From positions 1 through 25,291 of the IMG/VR virus record IMGVR_UViG_3300030102_001455: a DNA stretch of 25,291 nucleotides, one strand, 5' to 3'. The notes under the pieces are model-generated. The model searched no databases, was not told where the DNA came from, and saw only the letters and a list, made by a program, of their open reading frames with translations. Shown here piece after piece: positions 1,262 to 12,658 of this stretch. The stretch comes from a virus. How positions within the stretch are numbered: position 1 is the first letter of the stretch; each line of letters opens with the position of its first letter. The position numbers and the translations under genes were made by a program.

Positions 1262-4090
1262 TCACTTACGTTTCTTTTTTCTAAATTTCTTTCTATACCC
1301 TCCATATCTATTTCCGGCAATAAGCCCATCTTTACGTACAAATTGTTTATCTTTCTCCATGAAAGGAGTTAGTGCCTCTTTAAGCGTACTCATTCCTTTC
1401 TTAGTAGTCTCTGGCGCAGATTCAAGTATGTTAGTGTCTGTAGCTTTATTAAGAAGTTTAGTCCCATATTTAAGTAAAGGATTTTTATCACCCGCCAAAG
1501 CTAAAGTTCTTAAAGCCGCACTATCATAATCTTTATCATATAAGTCTTTACCTATCTTAAATGAGTCTTTAACAATTGCTAGTTGAGGAGCAATATCTGT
1601 AGTTTTCTTTATAGCTTGAAGTCTGTTGTCAATATTCCCTTCACCTTTAGATTCAGTAATTACTTGTTTACCTAGAGTTTGATATACTTGTGGAACTGCT
1701 ATACCTTTCATTGTATTATATGTTCCTGATAATAAACTCCCTGTTTTTGATTTAGCAGTTTGCATTAAAGTTTGACCAGCAGGAGATTTACTCATAAGAT
1801 TAGTAAAATCTGTTGCAGCCTTGGTTCCATACCTTTTCATAGGAGCTATTAACTTTTGGGCAGTCGGTTTTAATATATTTGTATAAGCAGATTGTGAACC
1901 TGATCTTACTAACTGTTGACCTGCATATCCTAGCCCTAACTCTGCCCCTACAATTCCAGCAGTCGGTAACCCTAAAGTTGCTAAAGCAACCTTTTCTCTA
2001 CCGCTCTGTTGAACACCTCGTATTACAGGATTAACTTCTTGTGAATATGCTGCGGATTCTAAGGTAGAAGGACCTGAGCCTCTCTCTGCTTCAATCTCTA
2101 CCTCTGGAAGCATTTGCGCATGAAAAGTTACATCTCCCTGATCGTCATATGAAGTAGTAGCTACCTTACCTTGTTTATATGCTTTGTTATATTCTTTAGT
2201 TCCATATGTAACATAATCCATGTCTAATGGAGTAACTTTGTCATTACCACCTTCTTGAAACTTCTGTGGATATTGCTTAGATCTATATCCGCCTTTTTGT
2301 TTTATTGTATTATCGTAAGGGTCATCTGTTTTATCTTTATCGTTGTAGTATACTCTACCGTATACTTCTGGCGCATCCATTCCAAAAAATCCTAAAGTTT
2401 TTTCATAAGCTTTCTTTAAACTTTTCTGTGTCTTTCCTGAAGGAAGATAGTCAAAAGGATTAAAATCCCATTTATCATAGTATGAAACATATTTACCTTT
2501 TTCATCTTCACCCTTCGACAATGTATATTGTCCTAAAACGCCACCCCTCCCACGAGGTATCATCTTCTCATCTCCAAAATATTTCTTATCTATCTCGGAA
2601 ACAGTACGCCACTTCAAATCTTTTTTTATTAGCTCTTCAGTTTCTGGTGAAGTATAATAAGTTACATCATCATCTTTAGCTATTGAAGGCTTATATTTAG
2701 ATTCTGGTACGCTATTATATTTTTGATCTTGTCCCATGTGCAGTTGTAACAAGTCTGTTCTTTCTTGCAAATATTCAGGATCTTCTTTAGTAAATGTTCT
2801 TTCATCACGTTCCTCCCTTTTACCTCGTACAGCGTTTATTATCCTGGACACCCCACCCTGATAAGAAAAGGGATATAGGTTATCAGCTATTTTTTTTCTA
2901 AAAGGAGCTGATACAGTTTCTGCAGCATATCCCGATGCAGTCTTTAATTTTTCAAGTGGAGATGCTGATAAAAACTGTAAAGTGCCTCCATCTTGAAACT
3001 TTTGTGGGTATTTTGGCTTGTACCCACCATCTTTAAAGTTTACAAAATATTTTAATGTCTTTTTAGTTAGACTAGTCAAACCTTTTACAAATTTATTAGC
3101 GTCTTCAGGAGGCTGTATAAGATCTAATACATCTTCTTTAGTAAGACCCATCTTTTCTCTATACTTTTTTATTCCAGAAAGATCTTGCTTAGAAAGAATT
3201 TTAAGAGCATCGGTAGCCCCAAAATCTTCATTCTCAGACATTGCTTCTGTATATGGAGAGCTTAAGGTATTTATAAGTCGTGTAAACTCTTGGACTTCTG
3301 CATCAGTAAGAGTGTCTAATTTAGGAAGTATCTTATCCATAGCCTTATATAACGGGGCATAATCAGACTGTCTTTGGTTTTCATATCTGTAATCTTTGCT
3401 TTGCTTATCTTTAAAATCTTCGTATCTTGATATAACATCTTTACCTATAAAGTCTTCTTGATCAAGATTACGATAATCTAACATACTATCTAAAAAGTAT
3501 TGCCTTAAAGGTTTTCCGTCCATTTTAGCATCTCCATAGTCCTCAGTTAAATATCTCTCTAAATCACTTTTGTATACCAACTTACCATCATACTCTACAT
3601 ACTCTTCGGGATCTGCGTCACTATAATCATAAAATCTGTTAACGTTGTAAGAATCTTTTACTACATCTAGATTTTTGAAAGCATCAAAAGTTCTTTTGGA
3701 TACAACTGCTTCTTCGTCTTTACCTGTAGGCTGCTCGACATTCTCAAGACTATATTCTCTAGGATTAGGATCTTTAGTACCACCTGTTTCCATCTTCTGT
3801 ATAAGCATACCTTCTGCTGGTCCTGATGGTAAGTTTCTCAAACCAGGAGCTGCACTTTGATAAGATTGTACTAGGTGTTCTTGATTATTTTGCACAGGAG
3901 GTTGTGCGCTTGCAGGGTTTATTCGTGGGGGAGCTGCTGGGGGTACAGGCATTTCAGGCATCTGCTGCTGCATATCCACACCTTCAGGACCTTGTGGTTG
4001 CTGTTGAGGTTGTAGAAGTTCAGTAAGACTGCCTTTGTAATTTGACTTGATAGCCTCTTTCAAGACCTGCATCTGCTCTTCGTTCGTCAT
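1262..4090 (-). CDS. Large structural protein with Gly-Gly motifs, probably virion-associated
   Basis: A 942-residue protein of unrecognised family between portal and the scaffold-like gene. Its ATG shares one base with the portal stop (TAATG), so the two are probably translationally coupled. The N-terminal 80 residues are rich in Gln, Pro and Met. A motif of the form YPQKFQ(D/E)GG occurs twice, near residues 360 and 612, each preceded by GGY and basic residues. A shorter METGG lies near residue 103, and the protein ends in GGYRKKFRKKKRK. A Gly/Ala-rich hydrophobic stretch lies around residues 695-735 (LGLPTAGIVGAELGLGYAG). Position in the head operon and size suggest a structural or injected virion protein. 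The hydrophobic segment would fit membrane interaction during ejection. The function is inference. Confidence 0.7.
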   Translation of the reverse strand: MTNEEQMQVLKEAIKSNYKGSLTELLQPQQQPQGPEGVDMQQQMPEMPVPPAAPPRINPASAQPPVQNNQEHLVQSYQSAAPGLRNLPSGPAEGMLIQKMETGGTKDPNPREYSLENVEQPTGKDEEAVVSKRTFDAFKNLDVVKDSYNVNRFYDYSDADPEEYVEYDGKLVYKSDLERYLTEDYGDAKMDGKPLRQYFLDSMLDYRNLDQEDFIGKDVISRYEDFKDKQSKDYRYENQRQSDYAPLYKAMDKILPKLDTLTDAEVQEFTRLINTLSSPYTEAMSENEDFGATDALKILSKQDLSGIKKYREKMGLTKEDVLDLIQPPEDANKFVKGLTSLTKKTLKYFVNFKDGGYKPKYPQKFQDGGTLQFLSASPLEKLKTASGYAAETVSAPFRKKIADNLYPFSYQGGVSRIINAVRGKREERDERTFTKEDPEYLQERTDLLQLHMGQDQKYNSVPESKYKPSIAKDDDVTYYTSPETEELIKKDLKWRTVSEIDKKYFGDEKMIPRGRGGVLGQYTLSKGEDEKGKYVSYYDKWDFNPFDYLPSGKTQKSLKKAYEKTLGFFGMDAPEVYGRVYYNDKDKTDDPYDNTIKQKGGYRSKQYPQKFQEGGNDKVTPLDMDYVTYGTKEYNKAYKQGKVATTSYDDQGDVTFHAQMLPEVEIEAERGSGPSTLESAAYSQEVNPVIRGVQQSGREKVALATLGLPTAGIVGAELGLGYAGQQLVRSGSQSAYTNILKPTAQKLIAPMKRYGTKAATDFTNLMSKSPAGQTLMQTAKSKTGSLLSGTYNTMKGIAVPQVYQTLGKQVITESKGEGNIDNRLQAIKKTTDIAPQLAIVKDSFKIGKDLYDKDYDSAALRTLALAGDKNPLLKYGTKLLNKATDTNILESAPETTKKGMSTLKEALTPFMEKDKQFVRKDGLIAGNRYGGYRKKFRKKKRK

Positions 4091-11232: not shown

Positions 11233-11538
11233 ATGATTATGCTAGAGAACATAGCAGGTGTAGTAGTAGGTAGCGTAGCTCGTACCTATGAAGGCGACAC
11301 ATACTACAGAGCTACAGCAAAGACAGCAGAAGGACTGATTTCTTTTAAAATGGCAGAGCGTCCAGCTTCAGGACAAAATGTATTGCTAGACATTTACAAG
11401 AAAGGAACCAAGCTACCATTTGGCGACGGTTCTATTCTTGAGAAAGACTTGGCAGTATGTAAGCTAGATAACTTCGACATAGAGGTTGTTAAGACAGCAG
11501 ACGCTTTGTTAAAAGAGCTAGAGGGTATTACATTGTAA
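11233..11538 (+). CDS. Hypothetical protein, first rightward gene
   Basis: A 101-residue protein, apparently beta-rich with alternating short strands, a GDG turn and an acidic helical C-terminus (KTADALLKELEGITL). No family is recognised. ATG codons at 11233 and 11239 are both possible; neither has a Shine-Dalgarno sequence. It is the first gene after the strand switch and has its own structured 3' region, so it is probably an early gene expressed as a short unit. Confidence 0.75.
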   Translation: MIMLENIAGVVVGSVARTYEGDTYYRATAKTAEGLISFKMAERPASGQNVLLDIYKKGTKLPFGDGSILEKDLAVCKLDNFDIEVVKTADALLKELEGITL

Positions 11539-11554
11539 TACTCTTTATCTATCA

Positions 11555-11597
11555 ACACAACATTAGTGTGTGAATGCGTCAACTAGACTGTATTCAC
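11555..11597 (+). other. Two hairpins after the first rightward gene
   Basis: ACAC (11555-11558) pairs with GTGT (11566-11569). Immediately after, GTGAAT (11570-11575) pairs with ATTCAC (11592-11597) with an inner GTC/GAC stem. There is no strong U-run, only CACTTTTG downstream. A weak terminator or an mRNA 3' stability element would fit. The 9-mer TTAGTGTGT here (11563-11571) recurs in the ribozyme at 11899-11907. Confidence 0.45.
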
Positions 11598-11655
11598 CAC
11601 TTTTGTCTATCTTTTACCAATCAATAGATTTATTCCTATTACATTATATATCATT

Positions 11656-11865
11656 ATGGACATTCAGAAAGAATTAAAAAAGGCTCAATTAGATAAAGAT
11701 TGGAGCAGCATCAAAAGAATACTTGATAAGCTAGACAACATCTGCAAAGAAGAAGCAGACATGAATTTACGTGAGTTCTTGCAGTATAGAGATGATACTT
11801 CAGAACTTTGTAGATATTATTCTATGACCTCTAAAACTGAGATAGGTCCATATAAATCTAAATAG
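11656..11865 (+). CDS. Small hypothetical protein upstream of the ribozyme
   Basis: A 69-residue charged, helical protein (KELKKAQLDKDWSSIKRILD, then DNICKEEADMNLREFLQY). No family is recognised. It starts at ATG 11656 after an A/T-rich leader. It ends with TAG, whose last base is the first base of the hammerhead ribozyme's inner stem I. Ribozyme cleavage would therefore cut the mRNA 43 nt after this stop codon. Confidence 0.7.
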   Translation: MDIQKELKKAQLDKDWSSIKRILDKLDNICKEEADMNLREFLQYRDDTSELCRYYSMTSKTEIGPYKSK

Positions 11866-11928
11866 ATATACTGATGAGTCTTCAATAGACGAAACACCTT
11901 AGTGTGTCTATATCAATCAATGTTATAT
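11850..11928 (+). ncRNA. Type I hammerhead ribozyme
   Basis: All conserved core elements are present and in order. Inner stem I is GATATA (11865-11870) with TATATC (11909-11914). CTGATGA lies at 11871-11877. Stem II is GTC/GAC (11878-11890) with a 7-nt loop. GAAA lies at 11891-11894. Stem III is ACAC/GTGT (11894-11897 with 11904-11907) with a 6-nt loop, and the cleavage-site C is 11908 in GTC. An outer stem I, ATATAA/TTATAT (11850-11855 with 11923-11928), leaves an internal loop of 9 and 8 nt, as expected for a loop-loop contact with stem II. Stem I is the open stem, so this is type I. Cleavage is predicted between 11908 and 11909, separating the genes on either side. Confidence 0.9.
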
Positions 11929-11931
11929 ATT

Positions 11932-12162
11932 ATGACTTATTATACTATGAGCAGACTAAAGTTCTGCTATGACTTATTATCTTGTACTGCAGGTATTGCA
12001 TCTATAATATTTATAATACTTGCACTTGTTAATGTTACAGTTCTGTATGGCTGTGCGGCAGCTGTTACAGTACTATTAACTGCATTGTTCATCAAAAGAT
12101 CTGAGATGTATCGGACTAAGATGGACAACTGGAGTTACAAACACTATTTAGACAATGAATAG
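11932..12162 (+). CDS. Small membrane protein with two helices
   Basis: A protein of about 76 residues from ATG 11932. ATGs at 11920 and 11947 and a GTG at 11902 are in the same frame, but the first and last of these (11920 and 11902) lie within the ribozyme, so 11932 is preferred. Two hydrophobic segments are clear: about 20 residues around LLSCTAGIASIIFIILALVN, and a second ending in AAAVTVLLTALFI. A charged C-terminal tail follows. The short hairpin topology is compatible with a holin-like or superinfection-immunity protein, but no family is recognised. The gene overlaps the lipoprotein gene by 8 nt, suggesting that they work together at the host envelope. Confidence 0.75.
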   Translation: MTYYTMSRLKFCYDLLSCTAGIASIIFIILALVNVTVLYGCAAAVTVLLTALFIKRSEMYRTKMDNWSYKHYLDNE

Positions 12163-12658
12163 TAATTATACCCTCAAGGACTTAGCAGTACTAGTTGTAC
12201 TGTTTGTCCTTGCGGTGTGGTTAACATCGTGCGATAAAAGAGAAGATGAGTATAACGATATGATGTCAACAGCTACTGTTGCTGTCATGGAAGATAACTC
12301 TTACACTTCGTTTGTTACATATAGCTGCGATGATACAGTAAACACATACATTGTAGAAGATGTACAGTTTGGTGTAGCATATGTAGTTAACCTAGCTCGT
12401 ATACCATTTATCAATGATATAAATGACGAGTTTGAGTTTTATGCTATGAAAGATGGCATAAAGTATACAGGAGATGATGTACTACAACGCTTAGTACCAC
12501 CACCTGGTCTTAGTATTATCAATGTTCTTGTTGATGCTGAAATACCATATAACAAAAAGATTAGTGTGTATGTATTAAAAGAACATATTCACAACTACGA
12601 ATATTTTATCCAGAAAGGATCTAATGTAGTTCAACTACAGATAGATTGGATATACTAA
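12155..12658 (+). CDS. Probable surface lipoprotein
   Basis: A 167-residue protein with a type II signal peptide. A short N-region with Lys8 leads into the hydrophobic stretch AVLVVLFVLAVW and lipobox LTSC, with Cys26 as the predicted lipidated residue. The following residues, DKREDEYND, are acidic with a Lys, resembling lipoprotein export signals that send Bacteroidota lipoproteins to the outer-membrane surface. The remainder appears beta-rich and contains no recognised domain. A phage-encoded surface lipoprotein next to a small membrane protein suggests blocking of receptor or DNA entry for other phages, as the T5 lipoprotein Llp does. That role is inferred. Confidence 0.8.
   Translation: MNSNYTLKDLAVLVVLFVLAVWLTSCDKREDEYNDMMSTATVAVMEDNSYTSFVTYSCDDTVNTYIVEDVQFGVAYVVNLARIPFINDINDEFEFYAMKDGIKYTGDDVLQRLVPPPGLSIINVLVDAEIPYNKKISVYVLKEHIHNYEYFIQKGSNVVQLQIDWIY

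Follow-up and report, generated by a model that had tools for sequence, protein, structure and literature searches.

A Hammerhead Ribozyme Between Two Phage Genes

Does a self-cleaving RNA lie between two genes of this phage and, if so, what might it do for the gene behind it? The window (the whole stretch of DNA analyzed, 25,291 bases out of an uncultured virus record of 26,689) carries on its plus strand a 69-aa ORF (11656..11865) and, behind it, a gene for a 76-aa small membrane protein (11932..12162). A sequence-only reading had described a type I hammerhead ribozyme between them. We place this element at 11864..11915 (plus strand) on the basis of a covariance model (R1), of orthologues with paired stems and of covariation in a wider set of sequences, and it is almost certainly a type I hammerhead.

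The core motifs CTGATGA, GAAA and GTC were found as described earlier, coordinates included. On the plus strand, stem I (GATATA/TATATC, 6 bp, 11865-11870/11909-11914) encloses the CTGATGA core (11871-11877), stem II (GTCT/AGAC, 4 bp, 11878-11881/11887-11890) with its loop TCAAT (11882-11886), GAA (11891-11893; the GAAA motif spans 11891-11894), stem III (ACAC/GTGT, 4 bp with a 6-nt loop, 11894-11897/11904-11907) and GTC (11906-11908), whose last base, 11908, is C17. The invariant type I core (C3UGANGA9, G12AA14, A15.1-U16.1 and H17) is thus complete at 11871-11877, 11891-11893, A11894-U11907 and C11908, and the three helices can form with 6, 4 and 4 bp, stems II and III being closed by loops and stem I open. 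As regards a possible tertiary contact of loop II with the sequence beyond stem I, a conserved A flanks the window hammerhead on each side; both are present in 67 of 108 phage hammerheads. The predicted cleavage point (11908..11909, plus strand), already given by the sequence-only reading, follows model position 17, which is C here and in 99 of the 108 distinct sequences. Cleavage after C11908 would leave a 2',3'-cyclic phosphate on 11908 and a 5'-OH on 11909.

Two further details of that reading held. The TAG of the upstream ORF and stem I have one base in common, G11865, the last of the stop codon and the first of the stem, and the ATG at 11932 lies 23 nt past the predicted cleavage point, which would give the downstream mRNA a 23-nt leader (11909..11931, plus strand). 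We accept this start because relatives that lack the hammerhead begin the membrane protein at the same ATG, behind a short AT-rich leader. The proposed outer stem I (11850-11855/11923-11928) had to be given up, as it was neither predicted nor conserved: its upstream 5' half is not complementary in the related contigs L306, L002 and L003, and its 3' half, TTATAT, is conserved leader sequence of the next gene.

The phage itself is crAss-like (Crassvirales) as judged by TerL similarity, its TerL being nearest to those of crAss-like phages (145 records with at least 80% coverage, the top one with 40.6% to a Suoliviridae genome). No DNA-level match to the window was found among annotated phages. 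Hammerheads were found in none of eight named genomes, seven of which are related by TerL (crAss001, DAC15, phi4:1, Fpv2, FPSV-S29, cr114_1 and Carjivirus communis), the eighth being the crAss-like phi14:2; the cultured phages among them are therefore unsuited as a ready model. The literature that we searched, with incomplete coverage, contained no report of hammerheads in crAss-like phages, which can now be added to the hammerhead hosts.

Model Scores and Covariation

The training set of the model R1 comprised 13 hammerheads from other phages and excluded the window and its relatives. R1 scored 61.9 bits (E 2.1e-15) at 11864-11915, whereas the next best place in the window reached 9.4 bits; the match to a covariance model that the sequence-only reading had asked for thus came from a model independent of the window. 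With the Rfam hammerhead models, which it had also proposed, the outcome was mixed. Matches were detected, but below the curated gathering scores, which are database cut-offs and no biochemical feature: 20 bits against 34 for RF00163 (E 4.8e-4, whole record) and 22.8 bits against 56.3 for RF03152 (RAGATH-1 hammerhead). The case shows that the Rfam cut-offs overlook AT-rich phage hammerheads. These missed cut-offs are what would favor a chance match to the hammerhead consensus. However, the element is well beyond chance: a descriptor scan on 40 shuffled loci gave 1 match, and the E value of the independent model, together with a conserved position at which the changes are compensatory, already refutes this explanation, and its probability is practically nil.

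The conservation was analyzed in relatives that were gathered via DNA polymerase and terminase and scanned with the descriptor. The scan placed a hammerhead at the same junction in L002 and in a set of near-identical contigs (the L003 group, with L004, L006 and others); L032 has one in the same region, and L306 was added through a search with the downstream membrane protein. The hammerheads of L002, L306 and the L003 group are upstream of the same gene as in the window, and those of L032 and L280 are upstream of another gene. The search of related genomes suggested by the sequence-only reading therefore recovered the element at the same junction, with stems that were changed but still paired: stem I has GATATA, GATAAT or GTTACA, stem II is GTCT/AGAC or GCTT/AAGC, and stem III occurs in several paired versions.

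In an alignment of 108 distinct phage hammerheads, which was fitted to the structure, 98.6% of cells pair (64% in shuffles) and 503 double-sided changes were counted (123 in shuffles). Most of this set was fetched by a pattern in which the core and some of stem II were fixed, and the conservation of these parts therefore reflects data selection; stems I and III lay outside the pattern, and both showed strong covariation.

Hammerheads were missing from most of the records of 49 relatives, many of which are fragments. They are patchy in this lineage, an optional device, and since close relatives with other cargo have none, the hammerhead is dispensable. The window record (26.7 kb) has one hammerhead, and L003 and L004 each have two, about 325 nt apart. 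Larger numbers were seen in other phages, with nine hammerheads in ~4.3 kb of one 51-kb phage contig (L174, record G051:4447-8719) and five each in the records of L241, L278, L193 and L198. Phage hammerhead arrays look far commoner than the Rfam thresholds suggest.

The Hypervariable Slot

The block upstream of the slot ends with a 101-aa ORF (11233..11538, plus strand; 92-96% identity in the closest relatives). It is followed by a plus-strand hairpin, GTGAAT...ATTCAC (11570..11597), which is nearly identical in L306, L002 and L003 and was not classed as a terminator by a simple scanner, and by an AT-rich leader, ATTCCTATTACATTATATATCATT (11632..11655, plus strand), directly before the ATG of the 69-aa cargo ORF. 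This leader also opens the slot in L306, L002 and L003 (3' part). In L315 and L098, a close variant of it is followed immediately by the membrane gene, and the slot there is minimal: a hairpin, a leader ending in ...CCTATTACATTATATAACATT and then the membrane gene, with no cargo and no ribozyme. On the other side, the membrane gene is conserved with and without the hammerhead, and its end is overlapped by a 167-aa lipoprotein-like gene (12155..12658, plus strand) taken from the ORF list, which has a lipobox-like WLTSC and is 75-98% identical in several relatives. The two were earlier called an envelope pair; they are real ORFs, a membrane-protein gene and a lipoprotein-like gene, but no family could be assigned, as neither protein (11932-12658) gave a Pfam family above the cut-off or a functional PHROG assignment.

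In the same slot, L280 has a distant homologue of the window's cargo ORF (36%, E 2e-4); L306 lacks this ORF, and a search with it as query reached no relatives. The slot contents of other genomes include small ORFs, a tRNA and unclassified structured RNAs: a 52-aa ORF, RNA modules and a hammerhead in L002; a 20-codon ORF that ends at a first hammerhead, RNA modules and a second hammerhead in the L003 group; the module M1 in L085 and L014; M3 with M1 in L314; an ORF with M3 in L312; and M5 in L082 and L088. L043 has a tRNA-Met whose distance from the polymerase gene is similar. L085, L312 and L314 have cargo and no ribozyme. In L306 (852-867), the cargo is cut to ATG GCT ATT AAA TAG, five codons including the stop, before the hammerhead, and this TAG overlaps stem I exactly as that of the window does.

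From these comparisons, the hammerhead borders a hypervariable slot on its 3' (downstream) side. Where hammerheads are present, no other element separates the one closest to the next gene from the leader of that gene, and in L306 it is kept with the cargo nearly gone, which argues that it belongs with the downstream gene and not with the cargo. These relatives form a natural series at one locus: bare (L098, L315), ribozyme with five codons (L306), cargo with ribozyme (window), noncoding RNA cargo with one or two ribozymes (L002, L003) and cargo alone (L085, L312, L314). With such a series, the function of phage hammerheads, which has long been an open question, becomes directly testable.

Several of the RNA modules in the slot are conserved. 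M1 is a noncoding module, AGCCTCACTC.TAAGACGGAAGGGA...GATGAC...GACGCAGAGTCTGGGCTTGTT, found in L003 (5234-5305), L085 (minus strand, about 3770-3840), L100, L027 and L314, and it matched no Rfam family in L003 or in the stretches of L085 and L100 that were tested. M2, also noncoding (L003:5099-5226, L032:647-783, L023:4947-5033), is 96-97% identical between phages whose proteins differ much more; with a GGAGC...GCTCC closing stem and two hairpins it has a tRNA-like outline, and it was not called as a tRNA. M3 is an unclassified structured RNA made up of AAGG, a variable hairpin with a covarying base (GACGT/ACGTC, GCTGT/ACAGC or GTCG/CGAC) and CGTATTCCTAAGCAAGAANNNAAACTGCTT; it occurs in L002 (4397-4462), L003 (5050-5095), L314 (2358-2403) and L335-L361, adjoins a tRNA-Lys in L342 and gave no Rfam family where tested. 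The pattern of its 3' core was found in 29 IMG/VR stretches, often between genes, several of which share the 3' core only. No Rfam family was obtained for the slot RNAs where tested, and the idea that they are intron-split tRNAs was dropped, as ARAGORN run with introns gave only implausible calls. In L003 (4996-5358; also in L004 and L300), two hammerheads ~325 nt apart flank RNA modules only (M3, M2 and M1), so double cleavage would free a defined noncoding RNA.

Placement of Phage Hammerheads

We surveyed the placement of 75 phage hammerheads, 71 of which have an upstream ORF end in range. In 55 of these 71, the upstream stop lies -10 to +25 nt from stem I, compared with 14.5% for random positions. 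An ATG (counted for ORFs of at least 40 aa) follows within 40 nt of the cleavage point in 44 of the 75, compared with 21.6% at random, with a peak at 20-29 nt. Stem I abutting a stop and an ATG ~25 nt past cleavage are therefore typical of phage hammerheads, and the placement in the window, which had been thought distinctive, conforms to this pattern. Clustered hammerheads that flank genes in prophages were reported by Perreault et al. (2011; PMC3088659), who proposed that these divide long phage transcripts into mRNAs of gene length; three arrays of these tandem hammerheads were cleaved in vitro and one in E. coli. That cleavage would release the downstream mRNA, as the sequence-only reading held, is supported as regards the expected product, but the idea of mRNA processing had already been published in that study.

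A Competing Fold Predicted for the Window Copy

The window copy has lost the fifth pair at the apex of stem III (11898..11903, plus strand), where C11898 faces T11903 and the alignment (A7) shows C-G in L002 and L306. The altered base also completes a competing helix (11864-11874/11899-11909, within 11864..11909 of the plus strand), which appears in the minimum-energy fold and would mask the cleavage base along with some of the core. For the 52-mer, the best fold (-13.0 kcal/mol) is well below the hammerhead fold (-7.7 kcal/mol); it lacks stems I and III, and the gap in matched contexts is 5.3-7.3 kcal/mol. The comparison used natural relatives. In L002, L306, L003 and L032 the competing helix is not the best fold, and the 49-54 nt cores of L002, L003a, L003b and L032 fold as hammerheads; in the longer matched context the gap is 5.5-7.3 kcal/mol for the window and 0-3.7 for relatives. 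When 112 other phage hammerheads were compared, the gap was at most 0.5 kcal/mol for 92% of them and 3.4 at its largest, which leaves the window copy, with 5.3, as the worst. In prefix folds, the competing helix wins once the transcript reaches 11908, at a point where the 3' strand of stem I is still missing. Having the hammerhead as preferred fold is a property of a copy and no family-defining feature, and the window copy is not predicted to have it.

Since the lost stem III pair favors the competing helix, the window copy is probably weakened; these energies describe secondary structure only and omit tertiary contacts, and a lower activity is therefore predicted rather than observed. We put the chances that this copy retains useful activity at about even. 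It might also be a decaying or inactive hammerhead, with its core intact and its fold trapped, that cleaves little or not at all. The exceptional size of the gap, the early appearance of the competing helix in the prefix folds and the patchy presence of hammerheads in the lineage are consistent with decay, but the copy has a fully intact core and both flanking A's, tertiary contacts outside the energy model stabilize natural hammerheads, and relatives in the longer context also show some gap; we regard decay as unlikely, if still a serious alternative. The hammerhead fold and the competing helix are mutually exclusive, as they would be in a two-state switch whose regulated OFF state is the competing helix and whose cleavage is set by temperature, ions, a ligand or transcription speed. 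However, relatives lack the base on which the helix depends, none of the four named above has the helix as its best fold and no ligand-binding domain was seen, which makes a switch very improbable.

A selfish or passenger RNA cassette, which came with swapped slot modules and plays no role in expression of the next gene, is improbable as well. The slot does swap ORFs and RNA modules freely, and the hammerheads of the window and L032 are upstream of two different genes, but many unrelated phages have this precise geometry from stop to start, and L306 retains the ribozyme without cargo, both of which favor a function at the junction. A broader proposal is that the slot is a swap site for junction RNAs, in which M1, M2, M3 and M5 would do the job of the hammerhead, at least one of them would represent an undescribed class of self-cleaving or processed RNA, and the hammerhead pair of L003 would excise a ~325-nt mosaic RNA; we consider this a long shot.

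Proposed Role and Comparison with Known Systems

Given the observed hammerhead structure, the compensatory changes with which it is conserved and the geometry from stop through ribozyme and leader to ATG, we favor a leader-trimming insulator upstream of the membrane gene at the slot edge, the copy in the window being a probably weakened one, and give this reading a probability of about 0.58. The transcript would be cut after C11908, and the membrane-protein mRNA would always open with one and the same short leader bearing a 5'-OH, irrespective of the ORF or RNA before it; in this way the hammerhead would free that mRNA from the occupant of the slot. Such an insulator is favored over a device of the cargo ORF because the hammerhead goes with the downstream gene. 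The non-hammerhead fold predicted for the window copy (5.3-7.3 kcal/mol) and the close relatives that have other cargo and no hammerhead count against it. For the lineage as a whole, a role as an mRNA-processing insulator is somewhat better than an even bet.

An analogous arrangement is RiboJ, an insulator part used in synthetic biology, with a hammerhead in the 5' UTR that standardizes the mRNA leader, as may be the case in the window; RiboJ is engineered, and the natural equivalence of the window hammerhead is our extrapolation. RiboJ was derived from the sTRSV hammerhead. The RAGATH-1 hammerhead (RF03152) has the same catalytic core as the window copy, which lacks its extra 5' helix. Like type I hammerheads of RF00163, the window copy has the core CTGATGA...GAAA...UC, three stems, an open stem I and a C at the cleavage site; it differs from that consensus in its AT-rich stems and weak stem III (20 bits versus 34). 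The window hammerhead is thus a new example of an already known type of element. The clustered prophage hammerheads (PMC3088659) are likewise intergenic between phage genes, with a proposed role in processing of polycistronic mRNA, and their tandem pairs recur in the L003 group, whereas the window has a single copy, and its host, unlike theirs, is an uncultured crAss-like phage.
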